The translations under genes and the position numbers were made by a program. Shown in pieces: positions 79 through 19,301 of a stretch of DNA of 50,136 bases (the first letter of the stretch is position 1; each line of letters opens with the position of its first letter). Origin of the DNA: a virus. The stretch lies in IMG/VR virus record IMGVR_UViG_3300031507_000008, positions 1 to 50,136 of that record; one strand, 5' to 3'. Below the pieces are notes generated by a model. That model was not told where the DNA came from. It saw only the letters and a list, made by a program, of their open reading frames with translations, and made no database searches.

Positions 79-166
79 CATCTCGCTCGGCATCCGATTG
101 TGGATTGAGACTAGGCAATAAACCCAATCGCTCTGACCGAGGTATAAGATTAATAGACTTAATCAT
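1..166 (-). CDS. GNAT-like virion protein, N-terminal part (cut by contig end)
   Basis: This is the start of a 138-aa protein whose remainder lies at 49808-50058. The ATG at 166-164 overlaps the TGA of the upstream tail gene as ATGA. The joined product begins MIKSINLIPRSERLG and has a C-terminal pattern N-P-D-S-Q-R-W-L-K-W-L-G-A, typical of the last helix and strand of GNAT acetyltransferase-like folds. In T7-like phages a GNAT-like internal virion protein (gp13 family) sits at the same place, between tail tubular protein B and the next internal virion protein. The role in virion assembly is inferred from this position. No acetyl-CoA loop is clearly visible, so enzymatic activity is doubtful. 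Confidence 0.75.
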   Translation of the reverse strand, partial: MIKSINLIPRSERLGLLPSLNPQSDAERDVIVQYLQGSTCVWAAEVDDNIICIFG

Positions 167-3003
167 CCCCCAGTCCTCTTGGCTTGATGTTCATCTACAT
201 TCAATATGACACCCAATAAAGTGGCGGGGTAAGGATTCGATTGGCGAAAGCAAGTTTGGCCATAGACGGTATAGGTTGGGTCAAGGATGGACTTGGCATC
301 ACCTGTGACGAGATCAGTGACGACTTGGGAAGGGAGACCAGTGAGCATAGAACTGATGTTACCTCGGACTAAGTCTTTCATGGCTACCAAGGTAGTGAAG
401 TCTGAGCCAACACTTAGCCCAAGAGTCTCAGCCACACGTGCGTCTACGTCTTGGATCTTCTTTACTCGGCCTTGAATGGTTGGTTCGCCAAGATCGACTG
501 CAAGGGTTTGGAGGTCACAGGTATAGCCAATGCCGACTGTTACCTTGGCGGCTGCAACTCCGAGGGTAAACTGTCCGCTAGCTGGCATAACAAACGGAGC
601 GATGATAATTCCGTCCGCAAGACCAGTAACCGTAAGGCCAGCTAGATGTTCAGCACCAGAGAAAGAAGTAGTAGGAGCACCAGTGTATTGAAGACCGGCG
701 TCGACACACCAAGCATCGGTGACTCCTGCGGTGAAGATTCGTTCGGCAAAGCGCTCGATGTATTGAACGGTGAAGCCACTGACGGTTCGTTGGACGATGG
801 AGTAAACAGCGTCAACTGTGCCTGCTAGAGTACTTTGTTCAGTGATTGAAGTAACGGATTGAAACGAGCCACCGACTGTAGTGGAATGGGCCCAGCCGAT
901 GAATTCTTGTTCTTTGAGGAAGGTAAGAGTTAGCATAGTGCCATCAGATCGCACTGCCCAAGCCATTTTAAATGGTTCTTCAGCCCATGTCCAACTGGTG
1001 ATGGAGAAGCCATAGAAGAGATGGGAAGCTAGGATGGAGATGTCTGTGCCTGTGTAGACATTGGCATAGATGTTATACGAGGAATCGCGGACGATTGAGC
1101 CTTTGGCTTGAACGTAAAGCACATCGTAGTTGGCGATAATGGGTTGAATATCGCTAACGCCATTGAAGCTTTGGGCATTGGCGACTAAGGCGGCTGGGGT
1201 AATGGCCGAGCCAGGAGAGCCACCATTGACTAACCAAGAAGCACGATCGGTTAGGACTAACAGTCCTGTGGTTTGGCTAACCATGGATTTGATTGTATTA
1301 AGTTGGCCCGAGACAAGCGTTGCGGTTATAGAATCGGTTGCCTGAGGCGGGCTGGAGACGTTGAAGTTGTAGTACGCCCCAGGTTGGGACATGTAGAATG
1401 TTTGTGGCGAAGCCGTTGGGCCAGCCAAAATTAGACGTTGTTGAAAGAACGCTGGAATAGATGGGAAGCCATTGGAACTGGTTGAAAGAACAGCAGTAGC
1501 TGCGGCTATGCCTGCGGAGAAGGTAACGGTGGGAACGGATAGATAGCCTGCACCGGAGTTGAGGACCTGAACTTGTGTAACGCCCCAGACTAGATTAGCT
1601 GTTACGCCAGCGCCAACTCCGGAGGTTGAAGTTTGGGCCACTGGATTAGCCGGGGTTGAGCCTGAGGATACGGCACCGGAGTTAGATGGCGCAACGGTAA
1701 TAGCTTGCCAAGCGGTGACAACACCAGCAGCTACCGTTTTGACGACTAGAATAACTCCGTTTGTGAGTGAAACAGTATCGCCAATCACATAACCCGCACC
1801 GCCAGCGCCGACTGTTGGTGTGCCCGTGACTTGTAAAATAGCTGACACGGAACCGGCAATGGTAGATGAGGCACCGGTTAGGGATACTGTGGGTACTGTG
1901 GTATAAGTGCCATTGACGGTGACATTAACATGATCAACCCCAGAGCCTTGAAATGGATTCTTGGCGATTGGTGGAGTTTGGGCGAAGTCTGGGGTGATGT
2001 TAGAGTCATCTAGCCTAGGAGTGGTTGCCGAGCCAATGAATCCGTATGTTTGACCAGCAGGAACAGAGCCGAAGTAAGTAACATCGGATTTGTAGACGTT
2101 GTATCCAACTGCTCCGGCAACGTTGTTCCATTGAATGGCGATGGACATGGCAACAGTACGCATGTCTTGGGATGTTATAGCCCCGGCTACGCTGGGTGAA
2201 GATTCCTGTCCATTGCCATCGATTGATGTGACTACGTAGGAATATCCAACTGCTCCGCCGCCAACTGTACTACTAATTACAGGTGCAACTGGTGCTGTGG
2301 CGCTGGTGCCGATTACAATTGGCAACAGGTTCCAATTGGCTGCGGTTACTAGGGTTAGGATATAGGTCTGATAGCTTGGATGGCAAAGCACCATTTGGTT
2401 TACGTTTTGGGCGTATTTAATCTTAGCAAGATCGGCTGCGAGATAGGGAGAGACGATGGTATAAACACGCGCGGATGTACCACCTGCGGTGTATGCGGTG
2501 AAGGCAGTTGAGTCAATGGCAACACCGTTCAAATTAGCGATTGTAACATTATTGCCCGCAACGTTGGTGACTGAGAAATATCGTCCGTTGAGTTGAGTCA
2601 TGCCACCAACAGAGGCGACGAATATCCAATCGCCAATGGTATAGGTATTGCCAACGGCAGTTATGACGCAGGGATTGGCTTTGGTTGCGGCGGTTATTGA
2701 GATTCCGGATTCAAGTACCGGTGCGCCGTTGAAGAAGAACCGCACATAGCGATCACCGAACTCGAGAATATAGCCGACGGTGAAGGAGGCTTGGAAAGGG
2801 ATTAGACGGACAGCGGTTGCGGACTTGTAGCATTGGAGGATGTATTTGGTTCCGGTTCGGGTGGATGCTCCACCGCGATAGTCCACAAACCAGTTTAGGA
2901 GTAAGGCTGCACCGGATTTGTATTTGGCAAGGTCAACGCGGGAATAGAGCTTAGGGCTCCATTCGCCGCTGTTGAAGGATGCTTGGATGTGTTGTTCAGC
3001 CAT
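163..3003 (-). CDS. Tail tubular protein B-like (T7 gp12-type) tail nozzle protein
   Basis: A 946-aa structural protein with N-terminal pattern FNSGEWSPKL, then RGGASTRTGTKYI, characteristic of podovirus tail tubular B / stabilisation proteins. It should form the distal nozzle of the short tail, attached to the tubular A ring. The start is the ATG at 3003, overlapping the upstream TAA as TAATG. Residues about 240-330 resemble a fibronectin-III-like segment (GYSYVVTSIDGNG, GYNVYKSD). Residues about 360-510 carry Gly/Thr-rich beta units (GGAGYVIGD, then NPVAQ about 50 residues later) that also occur in the neighbouring tubular A gene. The product is longer than T7 gp12 (about 790 aa), the excess being these inserted domains. 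It overlaps the GNAT-like gene downstream by 4 bases. Confidence 0.85.
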   Translation of the reverse strand: MAEQHIQASFNSGEWSPKLYSRVDLAKYKSGAALLLNWFVDYRGGASTRTGTKYILQCYKSATAVRLIPFQASFTVGYILEFGDRYVRFFFNGAPVLESGISITAATKANPCVITAVGNTYTIGDWIFVASVGGMTQLNGRYFSVTNVAGNNVTIANLNGVAIDSTAFTAYTAGGTSARVYTIVSPYLAADLAKIKYAQNVNQMVLCHPSYQTYILTLVTAANWNLLPIVIGTSATAPVAPVISSTVGGGAVGYSYVVTSIDGNGQESSPSVAGAITSQDMRTVAMSIAIQWNNVAGAVGYNVYKSDVTYFGSVPAGQTYGFIGSATTPRLDDSNITPDFAQTPPIAKNPFQGSGVDHVNVTVNGTYTTVPTVSLTGASSTIAGSVSAILQVTGTPTVGAGGAGYVIGDTVSLTNGVILVVKTVAAGVVTAWQAITVAPSNSGAVSSGSTPANPVAQTSTSGVGAGVTANLVWGVTQVQVLNSGAGYLSVPTVTFSAGIAAATAVLSTSSNGFPSIPAFFQQRLILAGPTASPQTFYMSQPGAYYNFNVSSPPQATDSITATLVSGQLNTIKSMVSQTTGLLVLTDRASWLVNGGSPGSAITPAALVANAQSFNGVSDIQPIIANYDVLYVQAKGSIVRDSSYNIYANVYTGTDISILASHLFYGFSITSWTWAEEPFKMAWAVRSDGTMLTLTFLKEQEFIGWAHSTTVGGSFQSVTSITEQSTLAGTVDAVYSIVQRTVSGFTVQYIERFAERIFTAGVTDAWCVDAGLQYTGAPTTSFSGAEHLAGLTVTGLADGIIIAPFVMPASGQFTLGVAAAKVTVGIGYTCDLQTLAVDLGEPTIQGRVKKIQDVDARVAETLGLSVGSDFTTLVAMKDLVRGNISSMLTGLPSQVVTDLVTGDAKSILDPTYTVYGQTCFRQSNPYPATLLGVILNVDEHQAKRTGG

Positions 3004-4103
3004 TAGTACATACCAAAGCAATCACCCCATTGAAAGCCATCATATGGCCCAGAGGTATAGCTATTGCCAAATGCATTGCCTCGGATGCGGATGAAGTCAG
3101 GGGTCACGTCGTTGATCACAAGGCCTTCATTGCCATCAGCAACACGAGCTTCCATGATCTTTTCGTTGACGAGTTTGATTAGGGAATTGGCCTTGTCTCT
3201 GGAGTTCTCTTTAAGGGCCATCATCATGGCACTAGCAATGAGGTTGATCCAAGCGGTTTGGAATAAGGAGTCCATTACATTTGGATCAGTGACTTGGGCC
3301 ACGTAGCTAAGTGTGGCGAACTCCTGATTGGTAAGGATTACCCGTTGCGGAGCAACTGGACCAGTGGTGAGATTAAAGGTAGCACCTGTACCAGTGCCAT
3401 TAGTGGAGCCTTGGGCAACTGGGTTGGTTTGGACTTGAAAGTATGATCCACCAGCCGATCCAGCAGCGCCATTGATTACATTCTGAATACCAACGGAGGT
3501 GATTACGCCACCTCCGCCGACGGTGGATACGATAAGTTGAACTGGTGTGCCGATTGGTGCGGAACCCTGAGGAGTGGAGGCAAGGGTAATGATGTCTTGG
3601 AGATTGTATCCAGTTCCGCCATTGGCAACTGCGGCAGCGGTAATAGGTACGAAGTAATCGGTTTGCACAGCATAACGGATTGGTTGGCCCCACCAATATG
3701 ATGAGGCACCACCGGTTACGGCTGTGGTGATTGGGATTCCGCTGGTGAAGCCGGTTTGGGTTGAGGGGATGATGAATGCTGGGCGTAGGCAATCAATGGG
3801 GTATTGGTACTCGTAGGCCCATGGAGGTGGCGGTTGGCCCGGAGCCCAAAGGGTTGTGGCAGCTGAGGTGTTTTCAGGGGTTCCGGGAGAGGAGGTGATG
3901 TAGGTGAGGTTGGCTGTCCGCATCGCACAATTCCATGGTGCTTTGCGGAGCAGGTCGTCTCGAGCGTTGGCGAAGATAAGGTTGAACTGAATGGCTTCGT
4001 TGGAGAGTGGAGTCGATCCAGGTCCAACCTCACTTGCCGCAACGGTCGTGCGGGTGCCGAGGACTTGTAGCGATCGGTTGCAGATGTCTACAAGCGCGGT
4101 CAT
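3003..4103 (-). CDS. Tail tubular protein A-like (T7 gp11-type) adaptor
   Basis: A 366-aa protein beginning MTALVDICNRSLQVLG, with the family signature of an aromatic/acidic helix then ARDDLLRKAPWNCAMR. These proteins form the ring joining the portal to the tail nozzle. Residues about 150-250 form an inserted Gly-rich beta domain (NGGTGYNLQD followed by NPVAQGSTNG) that T7 gp11 (about 196 aa) lacks and that resembles an insertion in the adjacent tubular B protein. After the insertion the helical family fold resumes (FATLSYVAQVTDPNVMDSLF, then an alpha-helical end). The gene lies directly upstream of tubular B with TAATG coupling, as expected for a tail module. Confidence 0.85.
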   Translation of the reverse strand: MTALVDICNRSLQVLGTRTTVAASEVGPGSTPLSNEAIQFNLIFANARDDLLRKAPWNCAMRTANLTYITSSPGTPENTSAATTLWAPGQPPPPWAYEYQYPIDCLRPAFIIPSTQTGFTSGIPITTAVTGGASSYWWGQPIRYAVQTDYFVPITAAAVANGGTGYNLQDIITLASTPQGSAPIGTPVQLIVSTVGGGGVITSVGIQNVINGAAGSAGGSYFQVQTNPVAQGSTNGTGTGATFNLTTGPVAPQRVILTNQEFATLSYVAQVTDPNVMDSLFQTAWINLIASAMMMALKENSRDKANSLIKLVNEKIMEARVADGNEGLVINDVTPDFIRIRGNAFGNSYTSGPYDGFQWGDCFGMY

Positions 4104-4106
4104 TGG

Positions 4107-4322
4107 TTATCGCTTTCCTTGGCTTCCACAGACGCCACAGTTGTCACCACCAAGTCCAACGGAGCCAGAAGACTGGCCGCCGGAGGGCTGTTGGCCATTG
4201 CCGAAGTTGTCACCATGGAGCCCAGGGCCATTGCCATCCATGATGTTCTTGGGCCCTTGCGGAGCCATGTAGTTGCGGACATCGCCAACGTTAGGCTTAC
4301 CGCCATCGCGAGTGAGGGACAT
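4107..4322 (-). CDS. Small Gly-rich virion-region protein
   Basis: A 71-aa protein, MSLTRDGGKPNVGDV..., rich in Gly, Asn and Gln and ending in a CGVCG pair of cysteines. Its ATG overlaps the previous stop as TAATG and it ends 3 bases before tail tubular A. Short proteins of this appearance recur beside tail tubular genes in podoviruses, but the function is unknown. Its position suggests a minor structural or assembly role. Confidence 0.6.
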   Translation of the reverse strand: MSLTRDGGKPNVGDVRNYMAPQGPKNIMDGNGPGLHGDNFGNGQQPSGGQSSGSVGLGGDNCGVCGSQGKR

Positions 4323-4558
4323 TAGATTCGCCTTCCGTTGGTTTTGGGTTCGTCATCATCGGCACCCTCTTGCACGGCACCAAGGGTCAATGGTCCGGCA
4401 GTGGGTGGGATTTCCTCGGGCTTGGGAGCCTCGGTATGCGATGAATTATGCTCCACAAGCTTCCGCATGGCTGCATCGTGGATGGCCTTCAAGCTAGGCT
4501 GATCCCGAGTTTCCTTCTGAATATGAAGAAGGGCCGCAATCTCATTCACGTCCATCAT
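4322..4558 (-). CDS. Small hypothetical structural-module protein
   Basis: A 78-aa protein with a helical N-terminal half (MMDVNEIAALLHIQKE) and a Pro/Glu-rich C-terminal half ending NGRRI. The last codons (GGAAGGCGAATCTAATG) also supply the ribosome binding site and start of the next gene, so the two are coupled. An AGAGG motif precedes the two possible ATG starts (4558 and 4555). No family recognised. Confidence 0.55.
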   Translation of the reverse strand: MMDVNEIAALLHIQKETRDQPSLKAIHDAAMRKLVEHNSSHTEAPKPEEIPPTAGPLTLGAVQEGADDDEPKTNGRRI

Positions 4559-4562
4559 GGTA

Positions 4563-4766
4563 TTACCTCTTTCCTTGTGAGCCGGCTTTGTGAGTGGCTT
4601 GGCTTACCATCGGGGCTTTGAGCCCTCGACCTTCATACATCGGCACCGAGTTGGTGCGGACTTGCTTAATGCCTAATTCAGCAGTGTAGGCAGGGTTAAC
4701 CCCACGGCTCACTGGTTCGGTCTTGGAGCTTTCGCTCATATCACGCGTTGCTCGGCCTTGTTTCAT
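4563..4766 (-). CDS. Small basic hypothetical protein
   Basis: A 67-aa polar protein (MKQGRATRDMSESS...) without clear domains, ending GSQGKR. The ATG overlaps the stop of the upstream 134-aa gene as ATGA and the gene lies 4 bases from the next start. It is probably a minor structural-operon protein of unknown function. Confidence 0.5.
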   Translation of the reverse strand: MKQGRATRDMSESSKTEPVSRGVNPAYTAELGIKQVRTNSVPMYEGRGLKAPMVSQATHKAGSQGKR

Positions 4767-5167
4767 TTGGCTTCTCCATTTGGTTTGGCGATTTGGCGAG
4801 TGTGGTCATAACGTGGCTTAACAGAATGTGTAGTCATCTCACGCCGAACCTTTTCAAAATGACCACCATCGGAATGGAGATCGTGGAGGATTTGCAAAGC
4901 TCGGTCGTGATTACGTTCCATCTCTTGATCAATCTCCCTTGGTGGTGTCAGTCCAAGTTCAACATACGCAGCCTTTACATGAACCACGTCGTGGTAGTAG
5001 TTCATGAACCGTCGCATCTTCTCAGGGACCTCCTTCTCTGCCTCTGCCATGGCGTATAGGGCTTTGGTCATACCTTGGCGGATTGTAGTGAGTTCACGAT
5101 AGATACGAAAGAGTAAGTCTCGTTCAGTAACAGAGTCGTCGAGTTTGTATTCTAGTTCGTCGACCAC
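4763..5167 (-). CDS. Hypothetical alpha-helical protein of the tail module
   Basis: A 134-aa, strongly helical, charged protein (LDDSVTERDLLFRIYRELTTI; EKMRRFMNYYHDVVHV). GTG at 5167 is chosen as the start because AGGAGG lies 6 bases upstream and the GTG overlaps the upstream TAG as TAGTG. A TTG at 5173 would sit on the ribosome binding site. No family is recognised. It may be a tail assembly or fibre-associated factor, by position only. Confidence 0.6.
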   Translation of the reverse strand: MVDELEYKLDDSVTERDLLFRIYRELTTIRQGMTKALYAMAEAEKEVPEKMRRFMNYYHDVVHVKAAYVELGLTPPREIDQEMERNHDRALQILHDLHSDGGHFEKVRREMTTHSVKPRYDHTRQIAKPNGEAK

Positions 5168-6672
5168 TAACAACCTCCTGCGGACACACCGCTATTGACA
5201 ATTACGCCTGCGGCAAACGTTGCCGCAGTATTTATACCTGCTGTTGATCCAGGGATAGCTGTGCCACTAGAGTTGCAGAGAATAGCCCCATTCAAAATCG
5301 CCCATTGGCGAGCGGCACCAAACGACCCACCAGTGAGGAAGTTCCCAGCGAACACCACACTGGAAAGCCCCCTGGCGCCGACGATCTGGGATATGGTTGG
5401 GCCGCCACTGGCGAGTAGGGTGCCATTGAATAGGAGCCTAGCTCCGCCATTGAAGTCGAATACACTGCCGATGGTGCCGGATAATACAAGCCCATTGTTG
5501 ATGTTGAACTGAGCACCACCCTGGGTGTTTTGGTCACTGCCAATGCAAAAGCCACCGGAGCCAGTATTGTCGCATTGGACAGTAGCGGCAACGGTTTCGA
5601 AGATGCCGTTATTGTGGATCTTGAACAACACACAGGGCAAGGGCACGCTGCTGAAACAAGTGGCACTGGCACCGGAGAAGATGGTCTGGGCTAGTTGAAT
5701 GTTGGCACCGTTGCCTAGCAGTAGCACATGGGGGTTGGAACCGGAAGGTTTCCATGTGAATGCCGCGCCATTGCCTGTGATGTTTAAAGTGTTGGTGCCA
5801 GGGATTGGCACCACATGAGTGGCGCTTTCGGTGATGGTTTGGGATGCAGTGTGGGAGCATGTGGGTTGGGTAAGGCCGATAGGATAGAATACAGCTTGTT
5901 CGTAAAGACTGATGCACTTTTGCATAGTAGCAAAAGGACTACCGGCAGTACCATCGCCAAGAGAATCCGATCCAGAATTATCGATGAATAGTGTCATCGC
6001 TGTGCGTGGTGAGTATAATCCTGGGCAACTAGAAACCTGCCAAGCGCCATTTATAATTTCGACTTGGAGCATTTGGCCAGGAAATATGCCATAGTTGGCC
6101 GCAACCCAACAGTTGGTTGGGAATCCAGACAGGAGTTTGCTATTAAGGGAGGTTGTATCGCCGTTGTAAATGGAGACTACGCAAACACCGCTGAACGATC
6201 CGACAGCGGGAAGGGTGATTGTCCACAGGCCACTAGAACCAGTACCTTCTTGAAGGACCTTACCGCAATCTGTGGTTAAGACGGTATCTGGGCCAGAAGT
6301 GACTGTGCGGAGAGTATTGGATGGAACACCTGCGGGAAGATCCGCAGCGACTATGGCGCGCCAAGTGGGGAAGGCAACTGCGCCAGATGATGGGCCGGAG
6401 AGGAAGGTATTGGCAGATTGTGTGCCGTAGACTTGAAGAAATGGAACGTCTTTGAGTAATGTGCCTACTGTGTTATTCCAAACCGCGGCATCACCAACCA
6501 CAGATGATACCGGGCCGACTACGATTGTACCAACTGCGGTCTGAGCAGAGGGAATTGCTGGTGAGCCGGTTAGGTTGCCGCAGACAGTATTGGCGGGAAA
6601 TACGCCATTGCATTGGGCCCAGGTTGCCGAAGGTAGAAGAAATAGGGCTAGAGTGAGAAGCAGACGTTTCAT
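5167..6672 (-). CDS. Exported beta-helix tailspike-like protein
   Basis: A 501-aa protein with a clear Sec signal peptide (MKRLLLTLALFLLPSATWA|Q). After it come a tail-fibre-like N-terminal region, a beta module (about 120-210) shared in style with neighbouring appendage proteins, and a segment SDSLGDGTAGSPFATMQKCI typical of the entry to right-handed parallel beta-helices of tailspikes and pectate-lyase-like proteins. Repetitive short strands follow (GNGAAFTWK, LFNGTLLAS). The mature protein has 14 cysteines, unusual for a phage spike but compatible with folding in the periplasm. The ATG overlaps the previous TGA (ATGA). Host-receptor or polysaccharide binding is inferred; no catalytic residues can be assigned. 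Confidence 0.65.
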   Translation of the reverse strand: MKRLLLTLALFLLPSATWAQCNGVFPANTVCGNLTGSPAIPSAQTAVGTIVVGPVSSVVGDAAVWNNTVGTLLKDVPFLQVYGTQSANTFLSGPSSGAVAFPTWRAIVAADLPAGVPSNTLRTVTSGPDTVLTTDCGKVLQEGTGSSGLWTITLPAVGSFSGVCVVSIYNGDTTSLNSKLLSGFPTNCWVAANYGIFPGQMLQVEIINGAWQVSSCPGLYSPRTAMTLFIDNSGSDSLGDGTAGSPFATMQKCISLYEQAVFYPIGLTQPTCSHTASQTITESATHVVPIPGTNTLNITGNGAAFTWKPSGSNPHVLLLGNGANIQLAQTIFSGASATCFSSVPLPCVLFKIHNNGIFETVAATVQCDNTGSGGFCIGSDQNTQGGAQFNINNGLVLSGTIGSVFDFNGGARLLFNGTLLASGGPTISQIVGARGLSSVVFAGNFLTGGSFGAARQWAILNGAILCNSSGTAIPGSTAGINTAATFAAGVIVNSGVSAGGC

Positions 6673-7094
6673 TGGGTTAAGGTCCATCCACCAGTTTCGA
6701 GAATGGGTTTAAGGATAAAGGCACCGTAGTTGGCACTAAGACGTATGGTGGCTAAGCCAGAGATTGTTTCGGCACCATTTGGGTTGATAGTGTAGGTGTT
6801 GGCCGAGGCAAAGCCACCAATGTCGACAATAGTGAGTGGAACTAGAACCCATTGGCCAGGGATGGCTTGAGGGGTTTGCGCCGAGGCTTTGGATGAAGGG
6901 AGACTGATGGTTACGTTGGAGTTGGTGTTGATGGTGATTAGATTGGTGCCACGGGAGATGGTATAGGTCCCCGTGGCAACTATTGGCAGCACAGCTTGTT
7001 GCGGAACGTTAATCCAACCAACTGATGGACCGAGGTAGATTCGTTCCAATTGGCGAAACGTCCCGCCTTGGTCGAGATCAGTCTGAGATGACAT
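6669..7094 (-). CDS. Small beta-module appendage protein, not exported
   Basis: A 141-aa protein with no signal peptide and no cysteine. After a short head (MSSQTDLDQGG) it consists of one beta module with the pattern YTISRGTNLITI ... TYTINPNGAETI ... GGWTL. A similar module (LTITPASGETINGA) lies at the N-terminus of the exported Gly-rich protein at 9366-10694. Such modules are common in head fibres and tail fibres. It is coupled upstream by TAATG. It is probably a structural accessory of the tail or capsid. Confidence 0.6.
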   Translation of the reverse strand: MSSQTDLDQGGTFRQLERIYLGPSVGWINVPQQAVLPIVATGTYTISRGTNLITINTNSNVTISLPSSKASAQTPQAIPGQWVLVPLTIVDIGGFASANTYTINPNGAETISGLATIRLSANYGAFILKPILETGGWTLTQ

Positions 7095-7624
7095 TACACT
7101 CTCCGTTCAACCGTCTTGGTTGCAGCGAGGGCCATGATAAGTTGTTGGTTTTGGACAAGCATATCGGACATGGTTTTCATAATCTCTGCCATGCCCTCGA
7201 TCTTGACGACGTTGGCTTCGGATTGGATACGGGCTTGCTCGGCTTGGAAGCTTTCCATGACGTGTTGGCCGAAGGACATGTCGACATTGGGTGCCATTCC
7301 CCAACGCTTGGAGAAGGTTGCGGATACGGCTTTGGCCTCGTCATCGACAGGGATCATGTCAGGGGTCGGGTCGCCGATGAAGATGATGTCGTCCTTGTGT
7401 TCTTCGCCAGTACGCCTAGCGACGATGATTTCCCCTGCGACTACCTCGCCTCGGGGATTGCGGTATTGAACGTTCCAACAATTGGGATCGTCAACATCGA
7501 GTTGGAGAGGGACTTTTAGTCGAGTACGGATCTGCTTGCCCGTAGCACGGTCGGTTTCGTTATACTCCCATTCGTTGTTTTCGACTGAGAGGTAGTGAGA
7601 AGTGGAGAGACGCCAGCGAGCCAT
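7094..7624 (-). CDS. Hypothetical structural-module protein
   Basis: A 176-aa protein beginning MARWRLSTSHYLSV. The first ~90 residues form a compact mixed fold with a repeated hydrophilic strand pattern (NEWEYNETDR; WNVQYRNPRGEVV). The C-terminal third is a long helix (FQAEQARIQSEANVVKIEGMAEIMKTM is part of it). It has no signal peptide and one cysteine, in contrast with its exported neighbours. Function unknown. Its place in the appendage cluster suggests a virion or chaperone role. Confidence 0.6.
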   Translation of the reverse strand: MARWRLSTSHYLSVENNEWEYNETDRATGKQIRTRLKVPLQLDVDDPNCWNVQYRNPRGEVVAGEIIVARRTGEEHKDDIIFIGDPTPDMIPVDDEAKAVSATFSKRWGMAPNVDMSFGQHVMESFQAEQARIQSEANVVKIEGMAEIMKTMSDMLVQNQQLIMALAATKTVERRV

Positions 7625-7636
7625 AAGTAGGTCCTT

Positions 7637-8095
7637 TCAGGTTAAGTCTTGGCCAAGGATATAGACATCACAGGTGCTTGCAGAGCCTTGGGCAGTGGTT
7701 AGGGAAAGATATAGAGGTGAGGTAGTTGAACGAGTAGTGGGTAGGTTAGCACCTGCATTCAGGGTAGCGGCTAAGAGGACAGTTGCTGCGGTTAAGGCGC
7801 TGTAGACTTGGGTATTAGCCACTAAGGCAGTACCACCCTTGGCAGTTGTTGGATAGAATCCTCCAGCCGCAGTAGTCATGGAGATTGTACAATTGGTGAT
7901 CCAGATTGCCGAGATGTTATAGACCAAGGCCGAGATTGGAATTGCTTGATCTGTAGTAATGTTGAAGTTGGCAGTACGAAGGGTGCCAAGGACACGGTTG
8001 GTTCCAGCATTGACACCGGAGGAAGTAACGGTTTGGGCATTAAGCGGCCCGGTGATAAGAGCTAAGGTGAAGAGTGCTAAAAGGAGCCGCTTCAT
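7637..8095 (-). CDS. Exported small appendage protein
   Basis: A 152-aa protein with a signal peptide (MKRLLLALFTLALITGPLNA|Q) and a Thr/Ala-rich beta-type mature part with two cysteines (ITNCTIS, STCDVY), likely one disulfide. The start at 8095 is chosen because the ATG overlaps the upstream TGA (ATGA) and places the signal peptide at the very N-terminus. Longer starts upstream would bury it. No family recognised. Confidence 0.65.
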   Translation of the reverse strand: MKRLLLALFTLALITGPLNAQTVTSSGVNAGTNRVLGTLRTANFNITTDQAIPISALVYNISAIWITNCTISMTTAAGGFYPTTAKGGTALVANTQVYSALTAATVLLAATLNAGANLPTTRSTTSPLYLSLTTAQGSASTCDVYILGQDLT

Positions 8096-9354
8096 TGGAC
8101 TGTTCCGTGGATGAAGCCAACGGTGGAGAGCGTTAGCGTTCCGCAAGCGGTGGAGGATATTGCGGCGGTTATGCCAGCGGAGAAGAACTCAAAGGGTTGC
8201 GGAGTGTAGTTGATACCGCCAACTCCACCTGCGGCGATTGGAATACAGTCTTGCAAGGCGTTGGCAGCGGTTCCAGCGGTGGTTGCACCATTGCTTGGAG
8301 CGGCGATGGAGTTGAAGATCATAAGCCAGCAGGCGGCGGTGCAATTGGCATATGCGCCGATTAAGTGGCCGGGGGAGGCTTTGAGGACGGAACTAGATGC
8401 AGCTGAGCCAGCTATGGTGGAGATTGCGGTAATTGGATTGCCTGAGGAGTCACCGACGGTTACTTGGTTGATTTGCATCGTCGAGCCCACCGTAGGTCCT
8501 ACGGTGTTATTGACGACGACGAATGAGGCAGGGAGTTGGTTAACGTCAGGGCCTAAGGCTCCGCGGGTGGTATAGGCTACGAGAAGGAGTTGGCCATTTA
8601 CTTGGTTCTCCATGTACCAGAGGATGTTGTCACCACGGAAGTAGATGACGTATTTGTAAGAGCCAGTGTCGGTGTGTTGCGGAGTGCAAGCACATCCTGC
8701 ACTGAATGATCCAACTGCACCGGAGAGGGATTGAGTGGAGGCTGGGGTTATGCCTTGAGCCACGGAGAGGTCGGCAATAATGGTTTTGGTACCTGAGGCC
8801 CAGGTTACTGCACGGAGCTTGCCATCGATTCCATCTTCAAAGCCTACGCAGTTGGTGCAATAGGCTGCGGCCGTGGGAGTGGTTGGGATTGTGCCGAAGC
8901 CGATGTATTCAACGGTGTTGGTTGTGGACGGGTTGGAGAGGTTGATGTTGGCTTGGAAGAAGACGTAGCCGGGATTCTTGTCGAAGAAGATCAGTTGGGT
9001 GGTGAGGGCTGAGAAGCCATTAGCGGTTGTGTTACCAACCAGGGTGGTTTGACCCACGGCGTTAGAGGCAACAGTACCGCCAGACCCAGAGGTTGGAGTT
9101 TGCCAACGATTGATGGTATTGAGAGTACCGGCAGAGAAATCGTCAACGAAGAGTTGTTTGGTTTGATCGGGCCAGTTCTGAACCCAACCACCGTTGGTAG
9201 TGGGAACGGCACCGATAGGGACACCTTGGGAGCCGTTGGAGAATGATCCGGCTTGAGGGACGACGTTGGCGCCGCCTTGGATTGGGAATTGCTGGGCCAG
9301 CAGCGGCGATGCCAGCCCGAAGAGAAGGATAGATGCCGCTACTAGCTTTCGCAT
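8092..9354 (-). CDS. Exported lectin-like/jelly-roll appendage protein
   Basis: A 420-aa protein with a signal peptide (MRKLVAASILLFGLASPLLA|Q). Residues about 60-260 have strand-rich segments (LFVDDFSAGTLNTINRWQT; GYVFFQANINLS; YKYVIYFRGDNILWYMEN) reminiscent of concanavalin-like or laminin-G-like sandwich folds. The second half is Ala/Thr-rich. Eight cysteines in the mature part fall in close pairs (CTNC, CAC, CTAAC). AAGGA lies 9 bases before the ATG at 9354. A sugar-binding role is a guess from fold style. It belongs to the run of six exported proteins. Confidence 0.6.
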   Translation of the reverse strand: MRKLVAASILLFGLASPLLAQQFPIQGGANVVPQAGSFSNGSQGVPIGAVPTTNGGWVQNWPDQTKQLFVDDFSAGTLNTINRWQTPTSGSGGTVASNAVGQTTLVGNTTANGFSALTTQLIFFDKNPGYVFFQANINLSNPSTTNTVEYIGFGTIPTTPTAAAYCTNCVGFEDGIDGKLRAVTWASGTKTIIADLSVAQGITPASTQSLSGAVGSFSAGCACTPQHTDTGSYKYVIYFRGDNILWYMENQVNGQLLLVAYTTRGALGPDVNQLPASFVVVNNTVGPTVGSTMQINQVTVGDSSGNPITAISTIAGSAASSSVLKASPGHLIGAYANCTAACWLMIFNSIAAPSNGATTAGTAANALQDCIPIAAGGVGGINYTPQPFEFFSAGITAAISSTACGTLTLSTVGFIHGTVQ

Positions 9355-9365
9355 TTGGTTGATCC

Positions 9366-10694
9366 TTACCAAGAGGTTACAGCGATGAATCCGTCACCGC
9401 CTTTGCCACCAGTGCCGGTTGTGGCAACGGCAGTACAGGCGCCACCAGAGATACAGGCTACGCCTCCTCCACCGCCACCACCACCATGGGTACCAGCACC
9501 GCCAGCACCTGGGTTGATTGTGGATAGGGTTGAGGATGCTCCTCCACCGCCACCGCAACCGATTTGGTTGGCAGCGAATGCGGCGGTTGAGACACCTGGA
9601 GTTGTGGCTGAGGAGGTTACAGCGCCGCCAGCAGGGGCAGTGTTGCAGCCTGTGGATCTACCTCCGGCTCCGCCAGCAGTGGTTGCGGGGGCAGTTGTGA
9701 TACCACCACCAGAACCTCCGCCCGGTGCGGAGAAGGTAGAATCACCTCCAGCCACACCAGCGGCGCCAGCGGCTGTACCACCAGCACCACCGGCTCCACC
9801 ACCGATGCTTTGAGAAGTGCCGCCGGTGAGAGATGATCCACCAGCGCCACCAGCAAAGACAGCAGCGCCACCAGTGGATGTGCCAACGTTGCCAACTGCG
9901 GCAAAGCCACCACCTGAGCCACCTCCAGAGCCACCAGCACCGGTTAGGCCAACACCACCTCCACCCCCGCCAAAGGCTTGGATGATTGGTGTGCCACCGC
10001 AAGCGGCTGTTCCGCCGAAGCAGGTGTTGCCGCCGACGGTTCCTGATGCGGTATTAGCCGCAGCAGCCGCAGCAGCACCAATGGTGAGGACTTGACTGGC
10101 GCCGAGGTCGGATGCGCGGAAGACTTGCTCGATACAAGCTCCACCTCCGCCTCCTCCACCTCCGCCCCAAGCAGTGCCTGAGGCAGGACCAACTCCAGCG
10201 CCTCCGCCTCCTCCTCCGGCTCCGCAAGCGAGGACTCTAGCCCAGGCAATGCCTTTGCGTGCGGTCCATGTTGCGGCACCAGCGGTTTGGAAGACTTGAA
10301 CATCGGATGCGGAGATAGTTGCGGCCCAGTTTGAGCCGTTGGTTGGGGTTAGGGATACGCGAGAGAATGCGCCGGTGAGGACAATGGAGGTTGTGGCTCC
10401 GTTGATGGTTTCGCCCGAGGCTGGGGTGATGGTGAGGGTGTTGGTTGAGGTCACGCCACCGATTACATCGATTACGTCGAGGGAGATGGCGGGACAGGTT
10501 TGGCCGACACAAGAAGCACCCGCGGAAGGCAGGGTCCAGATACGTGCGGCGGTGAGGGCCACGGAGGTAATGACGCGTTGATCCGTGGAGAGCATGGTGT
10601 AGGCTGCGTCACCGATGGGAGTTGAGGAGGTGACGGCAAGTGTGGGAGATGCCCATAAGGCAAGCCCCAGGACAAGTGCAAGGATCTTGTTCAT
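9366..10694 (-). CDS. Exported glycine-rich tail-fibre-like protein
   Basis: A 442-aa protein with a signal peptide (MNKILALVLGLALWASPTLA|V), a beta module at about 25-135 (LTITPASGETINGA), and then a large glycine-rich domain from about residue 150. That domain is introduced by WTARKGIAWARVLACGAG, which matches the start of glycine-rich domains on many tail-fibre tips. The glycine tracts resemble polyglycine-II sandwich adhesins (S16-type tips). Ten mature cysteines are often paired (CFGGTAAC, CISGGAC). It ends with the usual GGKGGDGFIAV. Receptor binding is inferred from domain type. The signal peptide is unexpected for a fibre. Confidence 0.65.
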   Translation of the reverse strand: MNKILALVLGLALWASPTLAVTSSTPIGDAAYTMLSTDQRVITSVALTAARIWTLPSAGASCVGQTCPAISLDVIDVIGGVTSTNTLTITPASGETINGATTSIVLTGAFSRVSLTPTNGSNWAATISASDVQVFQTAGAATWTARKGIAWARVLACGAGGGGGGAGVGPASGTAWGGGGGGGGGACIEQVFRASDLGASQVLTIGAAAAAAANTASGTVGGNTCFGGTAACGGTPIIQAFGGGGGGVGLTGAGGSGGGSGGGFAAVGNVGTSTGGAAVFAGGAGGSSLTGGTSQSIGGGAGGAGGTAAGAAGVAGGDSTFSAPGGGSGGGITTAPATTAGGAGGRSTGCNTAPAGGAVTSSATTPGVSTAAFAANQIGCGGGGGASSTLSTINPGAGGAGTHGGGGGGGGVACISGGACTAVATTGTGGKGGDGFIAVTSW

Positions 10695-11137
10695 GATGAG
10701 CTCATGCAGTTATAGGCAATGATCAAGCTAGTTGCTGAGGCATAGTTGAAGGTTGCCGTGGTTGTGGTTGTGGCTAGGAATAGAGGCCCAGCGTTGGTCA
10801 CAGCGGTTGAGAGTTGGCAAGCAGGGGCAGTAACATAGGCTGTGCCAAAGGTTAGGACACAGGAGGTGGATGCACCTGAACCTGTGGTGATCTTGCCCGC
10901 CACATCAGTGCCGGCGACGGTTGGTGAACCAGTGCCACAAGATGTAATAGTTGGTACTGGTCGTACACTAGGAGTGATAAGGATGTGGCCTTGGAAGTAG
11001 GTATTGAGTAGGGTATCAAATCCAATCGGTCCGCTAGGGTCTTGAGAGAGTTGGACCGATTTGGTAACGTTCTGGGCATAGACAAGGCCAATGGACAGGC
11101 CAAGGATGAGGAGGATTGGGGCTAGGATTCGACGCAT
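10691..11137 (-). CDS. Exported small beta-domain protein
   Basis: A 148-aa protein with a signal peptide (MRRILAPILLILGLSIGLVYA|Q). The mature domain has the pattern SCGTGSPTVAGTDVAGKIT followed by SCVLTF and APACQL, a module found at tail-fibre ends and in phage hypothetical proteins. Four cysteines suggest two disulfides. Its TGA overlaps the next ATG as ATGA. It is probably an exported relative of a fibre tip domain. Confidence 0.65.
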   Translation of the reverse strand: MRRILAPILLILGLSIGLVYAQNVTKSVQLSQDPSGPIGFDTLLNTYFQGHILITPSVRPVPTITSCGTGSPTVAGTDVAGKITTGSGASTSCVLTFGTAYVTAPACQLSTAVTNAGPLFLATTTTTATFNYASATSLIIAYNCMSSS

Positions 11138-11140
11138 GGG

Positions 11141-11785
11141 TTATTCCTCCATCCAAGTGACAGAGCCATTTAGCACGCCAGAGGAGATTGAGATGGTGTT
11201 GAAGTTCAAGCACAGTTGCTGGGCAACGCCACGAAGAGTTGGGACTTGGACGTTGTTCTCAATGTCACGACCCCAGTCGAAGACAGTCATGGCTGGTTGG
11301 GTTGCTACAGAGGTGACAGACAAGGCCATGTTTGCCGAATCGATATAAACCGGTGCGGCGTCGTTGATGGTTGGCACTGCGGTGTAGGAGACAAGAACCG
11401 CAGAGGCTGAGGTGTTGGCAGCTTGGCCAGTATCGCGAGAGGCGATTTGGGTTGTGATACCGGGGTTAGCTGTGGTTGTGCCAATGGTACCGCCAGTGTC
11501 AGCAGTGGCACGTTTGACCACGGTGACTGGGAGTTGGACCAAGGTACCGGCTGAACCGCCGATCACCATGCGTACTACACGCACGACTTTGGTTGCGGAG
11601 CCAGCGATGCAGACTTCATCGGTTGCCGAGGCAGGTGGGACTAGGCCGATGAAGGCCGAGGAGTAGGTTACCTTGGGGAGATAGCCAGTGGTGAGGCCAA
11701 TCTGAGGCACAGCATTGATCTGTGCCGATGCGGGACAAAGGGCCAATAGGCCCAATGCCGCAGATGCAAGGAGGAGCTTTTTCAT
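11141..11785 (-). CDS. Exported structural-module protein
   Basis: A 214-aa protein with a signal peptide (MKKLLLASAALGLLALCPASA|Q). The start at 11785 is preceded by GAGGAG; a longer frame upstream would hide the signal peptide and overlap the cement gene. The mature part is strand-rich and Ala/Thr-rich with two cysteines (DEVCIAG, QQLCLNF), one likely disulfide. It is the first of the exported series after the capsid genes. No family recognised. Confidence 0.65.
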   Translation of the reverse strand: MKKLLLASAALGLLALCPASAQINAVPQIGLTTGYLPKVTYSSAFIGLVPPASATDEVCIAGSATKVVRVVRMVIGGSAGTLVQLPVTVVKRATADTGGTIGTTTANPGITTQIASRDTGQAANTSASAVLVSYTAVPTINDAAPVYIDSANMALSVTSVATQPAMTVFDWGRDIENNVQVPTLRGVAQQLCLNFNTISISSGVLNGSVTWMEE

Positions 11786-11795
11786 GATTGGCTCC

Positions 11796-12323
11796 TCAGT
11801 TGGCAATCGCAATACCCGGTGGATAGCCACCAAGCACAGCGTTGTTGGTTGATTGATACATCTGATCATGACGATCAAGGACGATGAAGGACGAGATGTT
11901 GCCAGACACCGCGCCGACTGAGGTGTAGACTAGGCGAAGGAAGCGAGGGATGGCAACACCAGCGGGAGGACGGGGCATGTCCATGTCAAGGAGACGTGCA
12001 CCGGCTACAAGTTGGGCCGTGGTGTAGACTGCCGAGACGTACCAAGTGGAGTAGGTGCCAGGGGCGCCAGAGCCGTTGTCGGTTGCGCCTTGGAGGGTTA
12101 CAGAGAGGGAGGTGCCACCGGTGTAGGCAGTGGTAACCTGAACCAAGAGTTTGAGTGCGGGATCGTCACCGATGCCGATGTCCCTTGCGCCTTGAAGGTT
12201 GGCAAGGACAGGCAGACCACCACCAGAGATGTGGAGATCAATGACGTTGGTGGAGTTTTGCGTTGTGCCGTTTGGGTTGACCAAGGCCGCAACGTCGAAT
12301 GCTAGAAATCCATCGAGAATCAT
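11796..12323 (-). CDS. Bbp16-like capsid cement/decoration protein
   Basis: A 175-aa protein beginning MILDGFLAFDVAALV, with STNVIDL, ARDIGIGDDPALKLLVQVTTAY and a C-terminal FIVLDRHDQMY. These features match the Bbp16 family of BPP-1-like podoviruses, whose jelly-roll cement protein stabilises the head at capsomer contacts. It has no cysteine and no signal peptide. It lies immediately downstream of the major capsid gene, as in that phage group. Family assignment is from remembered sequence patterns, not a search. Confidence 0.75.
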   Translation of the reverse strand: MILDGFLAFDVAALVNPNGTTQNSTNVIDLHISGGGLPVLANLQGARDIGIGDDPALKLLVQVTTAYTGGTSLSVTLQGATDNGSGAPGTYSTWYVSAVYTTAQLVAGARLLDMDMPRPPAGVAIPRFLRLVYTSVGAVSGNISSFIVLDRHDQMYQSTNNAVLGGYPPGIAIAN

Positions 12324-12335
12324 GGGGTTGCTCCT

Positions 12336-13379
12336 TCAGGTAACCTGGGCTTCATTGTTGAGGATCGCGTCACAAGTGCGGACTGGGAGACCACGGAAGG
12401 TGGTGATGACCTTACCTTGGAATTCCTCGAGGCGGAGCAGGACGTTGGTTTTGTTCATCGCCTGGAGGTCGAGATAGGTTCGGATGACGCGATTGCAGTA
12501 CATAACAACCCGGCCCATGTTGGCTCGGATGTCAGGGGTGTCGCTCGATTGAATTGCGGTGGCACTGGCAGGTGCGGTAGGTAGGCGATAGAGCGCACGA
12601 ACCAATAAGTTGATCAGGTTCGCGGCAGAGACGCCGGTAAGCTGAGTCACGTCGATGTTCGCCACACGTGCGGTGTATCTCCAATCACGAAGGACGAGAC
12701 CGATCTCCCATTTGAAGTGATCGCGGTAGGCCTGATATGTGTTGCCAGATGCGTCTTGCACAGGCCATTCACCCATATCGCGATGTTGGAGACCAGTGAT
12801 CTTGCCCTTGGGGAATGTGGCATGGGTGGTGTCGGATCCCCAAGTCGTGATCCAGATTGAGGAGTTGGTTGTGGATACACCACCGCCATCGAGGACGTTG
12901 TTGGCGGTTTGGGATGCGGAGGTGGTCTTGGTTGAGTAGCGCGGGGCGAAGCCAGTGAAGCGCTCGGGGTTGGTGAACTGATTGCCATAGATGAGCGTTG
13001 CGGCGATCTGTTGGGACATGCCTTCGAGGAAGGCGCGGACTTCACTGAGGCGGAACTCAGCGGTATTGCCGTTAAGGTCGGCAATGTCTTTGTCGATAAC
13101 CGCATAGGTTTCAAGGTTGCCGCAGGTGTCAACAATCTGGGCAGTGGTGGATTTGGCATTGGGAACGCCTTGGTTGAGGAGTCGCCAAGTAGCCTGAGGG
13201 AGACCCGTGCGGACGGTGGTCTTATGCCCAGTTGGGAGGTTGCCTTCGACAACGAGCATGTCATCGAGGATCTCATTGGTTTGGGAAAGGAGTTCGATGA
13301 TGGAGGCGATGCGGTAGCCGTCTTCGAGCCGCTTCGCCCAATCGGCGTAGGTTAAGGCTAGTGAGCCAAGAATTGCCAT
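12336..13379 (-). CDS. Major capsid protein (epsilon15 gp7 / BPP-1 type)
   Basis: A 347-aa protein starting MAILGSLALTYADWAKRL, followed by QTNEILDDML, EGNLPTGHKTTVRTGLP, WRLLNQGV and DKDIADLNGN. These motifs belong to the GP7-type major capsid proteins of epsilon15- and BPP-1-like podoviruses (HK97 fold). Length agrees with the family (about 330-350 aa). The gene follows the scaffold gene and precedes the cement gene. A long inverted repeat in its leader (13395-13459) and an AAGGAAC ribosome site upstream are consistent with high, separately tuned expression. Confidence 0.9.
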   Translation of the reverse strand: MAILGSLALTYADWAKRLEDGYRIASIIELLSQTNEILDDMLVVEGNLPTGHKTTVRTGLPQATWRLLNQGVPNAKSTTAQIVDTCGNLETYAVIDKDIADLNGNTAEFRLSEVRAFLEGMSQQIAATLIYGNQFTNPERFTGFAPRYSTKTTSASQTANNVLDGGGVSTTNSSIWITTWGSDTTHATFPKGKITGLQHRDMGEWPVQDASGNTYQAYRDHFKWEIGLVLRDWRYTARVANIDVTQLTGVSAANLINLLVRALYRLPTAPASATAIQSSDTPDIRANMGRVVMYCNRVIRTYLDLQAMNKTNVLLRLEEFQGKVITTFRGLPVRTCDAILNNEAQVT

Positions 13380-13394
13380 GGGTTATGGTTCCTT

Positions 13395-13459
13395 AGAGAG
13401 GTTGAGGGGATAGGCGTGGGTCGTCAGGATGAGTCTGGGCATTGCCGTTCAACCTCTCT
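13395..13459 (-). promoter_or_regulatory. Long stem-loop in the capsid gene leader
   Basis: AGAGAGGTTGA at 13395-13405 pairs perfectly with TCAACCTCTCT at 13449-13459, an 11-bp stem with a 43-base loop. It lies between the scaffold stop and the capsid start, with the ribosome binding site just downstream of the stem. There is no U-tract, so it is not a classical terminator. An mRNA processing or stabilising element that raises capsid output is plausible. Confidence 0.6.
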
Positions 13460-13468
13460 GAGGTCTCA

Positions 13469-14155
13469 TCATGATTGCTTAAGGTTAGGGAACATCGCTG
13501 CGGCGATGGAAACTGGTTCCTTGGAGCCGGGTGCTTTTTGGCCTAGAGGAGATGGACCGCCTCCGGCTACGTGTTTGCCTTCGCTCAAGGACTTGCCCCA
13601 GGAGTTGAGGGCCTTGACGATTGTTGGGTGATTGCCGAGACCGGATAGGTTCATGACTTCGTCGAAGGAAGCACGTTGATCGGCAGGTAGGGAGGCTTTG
13701 AGTTTGCCAATGTTCTCACGCACGTCGGTGCGGAGGCCATCGCCGGAGGCGAGAGTGGAGTCCTTGAGGACGTCTGCTCGCCATCCAGAGACCATGTCAT
13801 TGAAGGCGGTTTGCGGAGCGCCTAGGGTTTTGGTCATGTCCTTGCCGTAGAAGTCGACGAGTTTCTGGGCTTGGTCTTGGGTGAGACCTAGGTCTTTGAA
13901 GACAGCGGAGGCTTCCTTCAACGTGTCTGGGTTGAGGGTCTGGCCATCGGCGAGTTTGAAGTCTGCATAGGTTTCGGGGACAACCGGTGCGTCAGGCGTC
14001 TTCGGTTCGGTAGGGGTCGTAGTCGTCCCCGCCAAGGATGTCGATTGATCCTTCAGCGTCCCGTCGGGAAGGCGAGCTTCCGGGGTATTGTTCAACACTG
14101 GTTCCTTCGGAAGATCGAGGACCGGAGGTTCGGTTGTCACTGTCACGTCGCTCAT
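13469..14155 (-). CDS. Capsid scaffolding protein
   Basis: A 228-aa acidic, Pro/Thr-rich protein with a central segment YADFKLADGQTLN ... FKDLGLTQDQAQKLVDFYG typical of scaffolding/assembly proteins placed between portal and capsid genes in podoviruses. The C-terminal end is polar and basic (HVAGGGPSPLG, NLKQS). It should guide capsid assembly and leave the mature head. Its first 55 codons overlap the end of the Bbp19-like gene in another frame. Confidence 0.75.
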   Translation of the reverse strand: MSDVTVTTEPPVLDLPKEPVLNNTPEARLPDGTLKDQSTSLAGTTTTPTEPKTPDAPVVPETYADFKLADGQTLNPDTLKEASAVFKDLGLTQDQAQKLVDFYGKDMTKTLGAPQTAFNDMVSGWRADVLKDSTLASGDGLRTDVRENIGKLKASLPADQRASFDEVMNLSGLGNHPTIVKALNSWGKSLSEGKHVAGGGPSPLGQKAPGSKEPVSIAAAMFPNLKQS

Positions 14156-14444
14156 TGAATTCTCTCATGGCTAGGATGAATTGGTCTGGGGTGAAGGCGA
14201 TTATGTCGTTAAGGAGACGTAGGCCTGCGTTGCGTTCGCCATCCCATATTGCAGATAGGCGAACGGATTCGATGGTATTGATTTCGAATATATGGCATGC
14301 GGTGAGTTGGTCCCAGATATAGCGTCTGCCGATTGGGGTGAACATAAGGGTTTGGAGAACGGATGCGCGTTCGAGGTCGGCGATCTTTGCGGCCTTTTCT
14401 TGGGCGCGGATGGATTTGCGATCGGCTGCGGAGGCTTGGGACAA
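13992..14444 (-). CDS. Bbp19-like phage protein
   Basis: A 150-aa protein with the core pattern LQTLMFTPIGRRYIWDQL ... NAGLRLLNDII ... FILAMREFNE, which matches the small Bbp19-like family found next to portal genes in BPP-1-like phages (function unknown, presumed morphogenesis). The start is TTG at 14444, 8 bases after GGAG and directly after the portal TAA. No ATG is available. Its last ~55 codons overlap the scaffold gene by 164 bases, and that tail (SSEGTSVEQYPGSS...) looks low-complexity. Confidence 0.65.
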   Translation of the reverse strand: MSQASAADRKSIRAQEKAAKIADLERASVLQTLMFTPIGRRYIWDQLTACHIFEINTIESVRLSAIWDGERNAGLRLLNDIIAFTPDQFILAMREFNERRDSDNRTSGPRSSEGTSVEQYPGSSPSRRDAEGSIDILGGDDYDPYRTEDA

Positions 14445-18227: not shown

Positions 18228-18804
18228 TCTTGCTCTCTAATAGTTGGGGTTCGACATCGATTACCTGGGCTCGGGAGGCGTCACGGAGTTGACGAGCACG
18301 CTCGAGGTTCTTGGCGAAGTCTACGTTGATATTGGTTACGGTGGACTTCTTAACCAGGCCAGTACGATCGGCGGTGTCGGCAAACACACGCAGCGCGCGA
18401 TCCATTGGAATGAGTTCACCTTCTTCATCAGCTTTGTCAAAGTGCTCGGCAATGGTACGCAGGGCTTTGACGTTGACTTCGTTGGCAAGGGCATAGCGTT
18501 CGGCCTCGGCATCGATGTAGGCCTCGTCGACGTCCTTGCGGTATTTGGCGACGAGGTCCATGAAGGATGGGTCGGAGTGGAGGATGTAGACCCGAGCGAT
18601 TGAATAGCCAGTTTGCTCAGCAGCGAGCTTAGGCCGAACGCCCATAGCGATGAGACGAGCAAGGCGATGATGCGGATCACGGAATCGTTGAGGCCCAAGA
18701 GGAGTAGTACGCTTCTCACGTAGGCAAGCAAGATCATCCACCGTCAGCGAGCGGATGGGGCCAAGTTCAAGTTTAACTCGCGGGAGACGGCCGCGGGTGA
18801 GCAT
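18220..18804 (-). CDS. terS: Terminase small subunit
   Basis: A 194-aa protein with an N-terminal helix-turn-helix region (HHRLARLIAMGVRPKLAAEQTGYSIARVYI) of the type that binds pac sites, followed by a helical oligomerisation part and a polar tail. The start at 18804 (MLTRGRLPRV) is chosen because AGGAGA lies just before it and the ATG overlaps the upstream TAA (TAATG). The longer frame upstream lies within the GIY-YIG gene. It recognises phage DNA and recruits the large subunit located 110 bases downstream. Confidence 0.8.
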   Translation of the reverse strand: MLTRGRLPRVKLELGPIRSLTVDDLACLREKRTTPLGPQRFRDPHHRLARLIAMGVRPKLAAEQTGYSIARVYILHSDPSFMDLVAKYRKDVDEAYIDAEAERYALANEVNVKALRTIAEHFDKADEEGELIPMDRALRVFADTADRTGLVKKSTVTNINVDFAKNLERARQLRDASRAQVIDVEPQLLESKNG

Positions 18805-19241: not shown

Positions 19242-19272
19242 GAGAACGGACTTCCATTGTTCACCTCCCAAG

Positions 19273-19301
19273 AGTATGAACTTCCTAGTTTCATTTGTCA
19301 A
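19273..19301 (-). promoter_or_regulatory. Sigma70-type promoter for the leftward (late) block
   Basis: On the minus strand TTGACA (19301-19296) is followed after exactly 17 bases by CATACT (19278-19273), a perfect -35 and a 4/6 -10 box. It faces the terminase-capsid-tail genes. A palindrome abuts the -35 box on its upstream side, so it may be regulated. Confidence 0.65.

Follow-up and report, generated by a model that had tools for sequence, protein, structure and literature searches.

An eight-gene cassette (5167–11785, minus strand) lies between the cement and tail nozzle genes of the virus record IMGVR_UViG_3300031507_000008 of IMG/VR, which was analysed over its whole length of 50,136 bases (hereafter, the window). 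Six of the eight products begin with predicted Sec signal peptides, and they are probably tail appendages that are exported through Sec, cleaved, oxidised in the periplasm, and docked on virions at lysis. More broadly, the use of the host secretion machinery for host-binding tail proteins appears to be shared by a large group of uncultured soil phages. Sec export and disulfide formation of the cassette proteins, although themselves inferred, are well supported by the predicted signals, cysteine parity, paired cysteines, and stapled fibre motifs described below; docking on virions at lysis is likewise inferred. Read directly from sequence are the predicted signals and their cleavage motif, the even and coupled cysteines, the apparent equivalence of the cassette slot to a tail-fibre slot, and the lack of any other recognisable receptor-binding gene.

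Predicted export signals of the cassette proteins

When the starts of the genes, their signal peptides, and the numbers of cysteines were determined anew from the DNA, the claim of the first-pass annotation that six of eight genes between the cement and tail genes carry Sec signals ending in A-Q or A-V was reproduced. In transcription order (^, predicted cleavage), gene A (11141–11785) encodes a putatively exported jelly-roll protein with the signal MKKLLLASAALGLLALCPASA^QINA (11723–11785), and B (10691–11137) an exported protein with MRRILAPILLILGLSIGLVYA^QNVT (11075–11137). Gene C (9366–10694) encodes a glycine-rich fibre-tip domain behind MNKILALVLGLALWASPTLA^VTSS (10635–10694), and D (8092–9354) and E (7637–8095) encode exported proteins starting with MRKLVAASILLFGLASPLLA^QQFP (9295–9354) and MKRLLLALFTLALITGPLNA^QTVT (8036–8095), respectively. 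Next come two non-exported products, F (7094–7624), a conserved marker of the cassette, and G (6669–7094), a tail- or baseplate-like protein encoded upstream of the spike (PHROG 20556, baseplate; expectation value (E), 2e-4). The last gene, H (5167–6672), encodes the exported spike-like protein with the signal MKRLLLTLALFLLPSATWA^QCNG (6616–6672). All six signals are composed of a positive n-region, a hydrophobic core, and a small-x-small site, with cleavage predicted at A^Q in five and at A^V in one.

The signal predictor was a rule set written for this analysis, and gene calls were automated. By this rule, seven of the ~76 called window genes bear signals, six of which are inside the eight cassette genes (Fisher p ~9e-7). 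The seventh (40004–40495), located by holin-like and lysozyme genes, begins with MLRFISLLVMILVSTSAFA^QNKL and has two mature cysteines; it gave no family match.

Related loci were collected from IMG/VR with two seeds, namely the window capsid protein, which matched at least 598 stretches, of which the best 80 were kept, and the non-exported gene F, which added further loci. Genes were called on 121 cassette-bearing loci, with the slot defined as the region between the cement and nozzle genes. Signals were found in 275 of 916 nonredundant slot genes, as compared with 28 of 714 head-region genes and 2 of 249 tail-region genes (30 of 963 together). The same cassette, for which the first-pass annotation had proposed a survey of related phages, is recurrent, with 56 of the 62 complete cassettes holding one to eight signal-bearing genes. 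Six contigs of the survey have no signal-bearing cassette gene by the rule, and ordinary fibres fill the slot in several of them, indicating that export is not a feature of the whole clade. Of 254 signal-bearing proteins, 230 show the cleavage motif, small-x-small followed by Gln, and 177 have Gln at the predicted +1 position. Tat-like twin-arginine signals (e.g., MYSFARRTFLISASAFVATSA) were also observed, in the loci L007 (7894–8613), L040 (4170–7166), L073 (12635–12844), and L087 (4488–7094); the four tested Tat-like cassette proteins had no Pfam match.

Parity and pairing of cysteines

The mature parts of A, B, C, D, E, and H contain 2, 4, 10, 8, 2, and 14 cysteines, respectively, while F has one and G and the cement protein have none, in agreement with the counts first reported. 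Six even numbers would occur by chance once in 64, and the portal protein (8) and the nozzle proteins tubA (4) and tubB (6) likewise have even counts, which makes parity within the window weak evidence by itself. It can be regarded as strong once the related loci are included. Among proteins no shorter than 100 residues that have one or more mature cysteines, the number is even in 228 of 239 signal-bearing slot proteins versus 131 of 300 signal-less neighbours in the 121 loci. After joining by BLAST into families, 48 of 55 exported families are even versus 41 of 79 signal-less ones (Fisher p = 1.6e-5), with an even-parity binomial p of 1e-8 for the exported families. Some of the odd-count exported exceptions are likely false signals; the remaining ones are mostly large spikes.

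Families A and B consist of related sequences, which would inflate p-values, and the pairing is given as counts. In a 38-sequence alignment of family A, 33 members have their cysteines at mature positions 38 and 171 and the other five at 37 and 186, with no mixtures, and three members have one additional pair. One cysteine pair is invariant in 25 members of family B, and the second is missing in six, each time with both partners gone. Both the even number and the paired gain and loss are as would be expected of disulfide-bonded extracytoplasmic proteins. The AlphaFold model of family A is all-beta and jelly-roll-like (predicted local distance difference test score (pLDDT), 86.9), with both cysteines placed in core strands. 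Its nearest viral predicted folds are uncharacterised phage proteins, including those of Pantoea phage LIMEzero, Citrobacter phage CVT22, and Ralstonia phage RSB2, and a fold search of the PDB returned weak viral jelly rolls only, none at E ≤ 0.001. The model of H, built from seven sequences (pLDDT, 38), had no usable fold.

Relation of the cassette to tail fibres and spikes

Many exported spikes in the position of H open, directly after the signal, with QNxTCPTRPxGDxSNACASTAFV, which resembles the ordinary tail-fibre motif PxGDxSTxxATTAFV plus two cysteines (a staple). Of 25 exported motif-bearers, 22 have both staple cysteines, as against none of six signal-less ones, in a count from which obvious stray matches were dropped and in which five signals missed by the rule were accepted by eye. 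For example, the signal-less protein of locus L187 has FVAPDRLAGDSTNAVANTRFV at the place where the exported protein of L190 has TTCSDRPAGDSSNACANTRFV, the motif stretches being NFVAPDRLAGDSTNAVANTRFV and NTTCSDRPAGDSSNACANTRFV, respectively. A scan of IMG/VR with the staple motif only gave 56 hits; a signal precedes the motif in all 55 intact starts (47 by the rule and 8 by eye), and the other hit is cut off at the contig end. The mature N-terminus of the window protein H (6553–6615, minus strand; QCNGVFPANTVCGNLTGSPAI) is of a second type (QCNGVFPANTVCGNLTGS), apparently derived from another fibre motif, ANxTVxGNxTGS, with cysteines in it.

Clade core genes are absent from eight of the 56 staple-hit contigs; L254, L260, L279, and L283 each carry a stapled exported spike with no clade core genes on the contig. 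The capsid protein of L260 belongs to another family (PHROG 9953), which indicates that the spike module has crossed phage lineages. With somewhat less assurance than for the window itself, we lean towards a lineage-wide maturation of appendages outside the cytoplasm, which would use the host Sec system, signal peptidase, and disulfide enzymes and would finish the virion at lysis. Cytoplasmic fibre genes would have been converted by gaining a signal and paired cysteines, and spike modules would have spread to phages with an unrelated capsid.

The slot itself holds signal-less proteins in four loci (L187, L191, L038, and L066), which match tail-fibre and tail-spike families with E down to 2e-30. 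Signal-bearing slot proteins match the Pect-lyase spike, the glycine-rich tip, Tail Collar, C1q, and several PHROG tail families, although most exported proteins have no family match. Pect-lyase scored over its cut-off in eight records, and all seven mapped matches are in signal-bearing genes (that of L149 by eye). The fibre-like domains claimed for the window in the first-pass annotation were borne out in part: fibre or spike domains are clear in C only, which matches PHROG 863 "tail fiber assembly" (glycine-rich fibre tip; E = 1.8e-12), and G is baseplate- or tail-like as noted above. The beta-helix ascribed to H received weak sequence support, with matches to a PHROG tail protein (E = 0.016) and to Pfam K1-lyase_N (E = 0.008, under the cut-off of that family). 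BLASTP between C and the signal-less protein of L187 (6672–8156), both of PHROG 863, was uninformative owing to their glycine composition.

Several features of H correspond to the layout of receptor-binding proteins, i.e., a gene in the morphogenesis operon encoding a conserved N-terminal anchor and a variable body: in the alignment of the H family, the first 20 mature residues are ~75% conserved and the rest ~10%. One relative of H ends with a glycine-rich tip like that of C. Relatives of D were found in viral contigs at 76–99% identity, and D is lectin-like as judged by eye only. F is the best-conserved cassette gene, present in 47 of the first 81 loci, and is a candidate adaptor or chaperone. 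No match to A, D, F, or H was found among 50,697 cultured phage records, and none of the six exported window proteins matched an outer-membrane beta-barrel family in Pfam.

In cultured relatives, the tail-fibre genes are flanked by those for internal proteins and those for lysis. In the window this position is empty, with the lysozyme gene (40772–41254) directly following that of the large internal protein (41254–47169, minus strand), and a scan of the late genes revealed no other fibre-like or recognisable receptor-binding gene. Between tubA and tubB, a prophage of Gluconacetobacter entanii (L101) encodes a spike that bears a signal and matches tail spikes, and a signal-bearing GH66 dextranase is encoded at the same position in Bombella prophages (L109 of Bombella apis, 13439–15796; L132, 13613–15592). 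Close relatives of these acetic-acid-bacteria prophages have signal-less beta-helix proteins there. Acquisition of bacterial secreted proteins is a plausible origin for the Bombella GH66 enzyme, but not for those proteins that begin with phage fibre motifs.

Fate of the exported proteins

Export with disulfide formation, as proposed in the first-pass annotation, is well supported, and of the three fates it had suggested (coating of the host surface, decoys, and joining virions at or after lysis), the last fits best, given the signal-less fibres in the same slot, the lack of another receptor-binding gene, and the layout of an anchor with a variable body. Individual members may still coat the host or act as decoys, as is suggested by the outer-membrane beta-barrel exported from a second gene island of one relative (see below). 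The main rival explanation regards the products as accessory proteins, secreted or displayed on the envelope for superinfection exclusion or as decoys, adhesins, or free depolymerases, which would never be on the virion and would be late-operon cargo in the manner of Lom. Lambda Lom is indeed a signal-bearing outer-membrane protein encoded between the tail spike and fibre genes (PMC12309495), and both the exported outer-membrane beta-barrel encoded upstream of the head genes in one relative (L066, 1222–1938; Lom-like in kind) and the dextranase in the tail locus of Bombella prophages are in line with such a role. We nevertheless consider it rather unlikely, because the slot alternates with ordinary tail fibres, the window would be left without a recognisable receptor-binding protein, and the exported N-termini appear to be modified phage fibre motifs. 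Somewhat better, though still tentative, are the prospects of a mixed cassette, in which H and perhaps C are on the virion and A, B, D, and E are separately secreted, an explanation that overlaps with the favoured one. The family matches mainly back spikes and glycine-rich tips, and A has its own fold and adjoins the cement gene; the terminase-side island of exported proteins described below and the exported barrel of relatives also make a mixed cassette quite possible. On the other hand, the signal type, parity, and operon position are common to all six proteins, and the proteins nearest to A in predicted fold, although not known to be virion components, come from other phages.

The remaining two explanations carry little weight. 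An uncleaved hydrophobic N-terminus, anchoring the protein in the membrane or in the assembled virion, could be suspected from the short signal and the conserved sequence immediately after it in several exported proteins, but it is improbable in view of the cleavage motif and predicted +1 Gln in most signal-bearing proteins (230 and 177 of 254, respectively) and of the even, paired cysteines, which point to an oxidising compartment. Leader-like starts and parity produced by chance or composition, conceivable with rule-based signals and automated gene calls, have a barely appreciable likelihood, being already contradicted by the concentration of signals in the slot (275 of 916 versus 30 of 963 elsewhere) and by the family-level parity (p ~1e-8).

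Docking of the appendages on virions at lysis also has several points weighing against it. No virion mass spectrometry or localisation results were found for any member, and we know of no mechanism that brings periplasmic appendages to cytoplasmic particles. The signal prediction is rule-based, a few spikes have odd cysteine counts, and, as mentioned, most exported proteins lack a family match. Furthermore, a cassette may hold up to eight exported genes, beyond the need for receptor binding, and one relative encodes the exported barrel described above. In some relatives, a second group of signal-bearing genes forms an island that separates the two terminase genes and is remote from those for the tail. 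This island, just upstream of the large terminase gene and with mostly even cysteine counts, was observed in L009 (3092–5082), L016 (1235–4562), L068 (1544–2995), L075 (1976–4739), and L168 (30–2595), and the terminase-side signals are in part a genuine second island and not predictor noise.

If the appendages are completed at lysis as we favour, the head, cement, and nozzle would be assembled in the cytoplasm as usual, while the cassette would supply the outer appendages, i.e., host-binding spikes or fibres and, probably, a jelly-roll protein that decorates the particle or is part of a fibre. These would be made with Sec signals, exported to the periplasm, cut by signal peptidase I, and oxidised there, presumably by the host Dsb system. 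Lysis would then open the inner membrane and allow the particles and the periplasmic pool to mix, whereupon the mature appendages would dock via the short conserved N-termini bared by signal cleavage. Assembly of tailed phages is generally held to be cytoplasmic, with appendages added before lysis. The proposed route would thus be a split assembly line for tailed phages, reliant on host export and disulfide-forming functions, which may be a factor in host range and defence, and depolymerases and adhesins that are very stable and can be secreted could be drawn from it as a natural source. The route would also call for caution in annotation, as signal-bearing tail genes may be mistaken for host genes.

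Genome setting and comparison with known systems

The window has a 78-base direct terminal repeat and is therefore probably a complete podovirus genome. Its structural genes are on the minus strand, in the order of terminase, portal (14445–16184), scaffold/protease (13469–14155), major capsid protein (12336–13379), cement protein (11796–12323), cassette, and tubA and tubB. The capsid protein is of the epsilon15/BPP-1 type (identity, 54% with Salmonella phage 66FD and 51% with phiV10), and the cement protein, the gene of which is transcribed ahead of the cassette and bounds it upstream, matches Pfam PF21190 (Bbp16; E = 4e-8, over the cut-off). After spike H follow two small non-exported genes, I and J (4563–5173), in an order conserved in related loci. 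The tail tubular (nozzle) genes tubA (3003–4103) and tubB (163–3021), the products of which match the PHROG 394/376 tail proteins, form the downstream boundary. The genes for internal virion proteins and lysis are located at 49.8–38.9 kb. Homologous capsid, cement, portal, and nozzle genes are thus arranged in order as in the morphogenesis module of the epsilon15/BPP-1 type. Separately, seven otherwise unrelated window proteins, encoded at 4322–4558, 7094–7624 (F), 18804–19301, 20657–21049, 25547–26143, 26956–27339, and 30756–31052, have -RRI or -RRV at the C-terminus, which is extended to GKINRRI in two. Among the relatives, 107 of 2045 called proteins (56 of the 107 being of the F family) end in RR[IVA], which looks like a common C-terminal tag. 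An open reading frame at 34848–35999 encodes a uracil-DNA-glycosylase-like domain fused to a 3'-5' exonuclease domain.

Podoviruses of the epsilon15/phiV10/BPP-1/BcepC6B types (Uetakevirus, Rauchvirus, and Ryyoungvirus) resemble the window in the capsid protein (54–42% identity), Bbp16 cement protein, portal, and nozzle order, but have one or two small genes between the cement and nozzle genes and encode their fibres after the internal proteins. A clear signal on a structural protein of these phages was seen only in gp19 of Burkholderia phage BcepC6B, annotated as "tail fiber protein", a tail-locus product which is like the cassette proteins in having a signal (MKKLIAILLAVPALALGA^T), tail-fibre motifs, and four mature cysteines. 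Similarly, orf035 of Xanthomonas phage PBR31, a "putative structural protein" gene in the tail locus, has a signal peptide and tail-fibre motifs. Both are single genes without a cassette, unlike those of the window, and the available passages of the papers on these phages do not mention export of gp19 or orf035. Together with the prophages of Bombella, Gluconacetobacter, and Saccharibacter, they are candidate leads among cultured systems.

No direct precedent for Sec-exported virion appendages in tailed phages was found in the open-access literature, subscription journals and preprints being outside its scope, and to our knowledge the export of host-binding tail proteins for disulfide formation is not known of tailed phages. 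The receptor-binding protein pIII of filamentous phages is Sec-exported, cleaved, and disulfide-bonded; unlike tailed phages, however, these belong to an unrelated virus class, and their particles form at the membrane and leave the cell by extrusion. Disulfides are present in the tail spikes, short fibres, and sheath of the alphaproteobacterial Agrobacterium phage Milano (PMC10811340). They differ from those predicted here in being mainly inter-subunit and in occurring also in the sheath and baseplate, and the available portion of that report mentions no signal peptides. Lambda Lom shares with the cassette a signal-bearing gene among the tail genes, but its product is a beta-barrel of the host envelope and not a fibre (PMC12309495).

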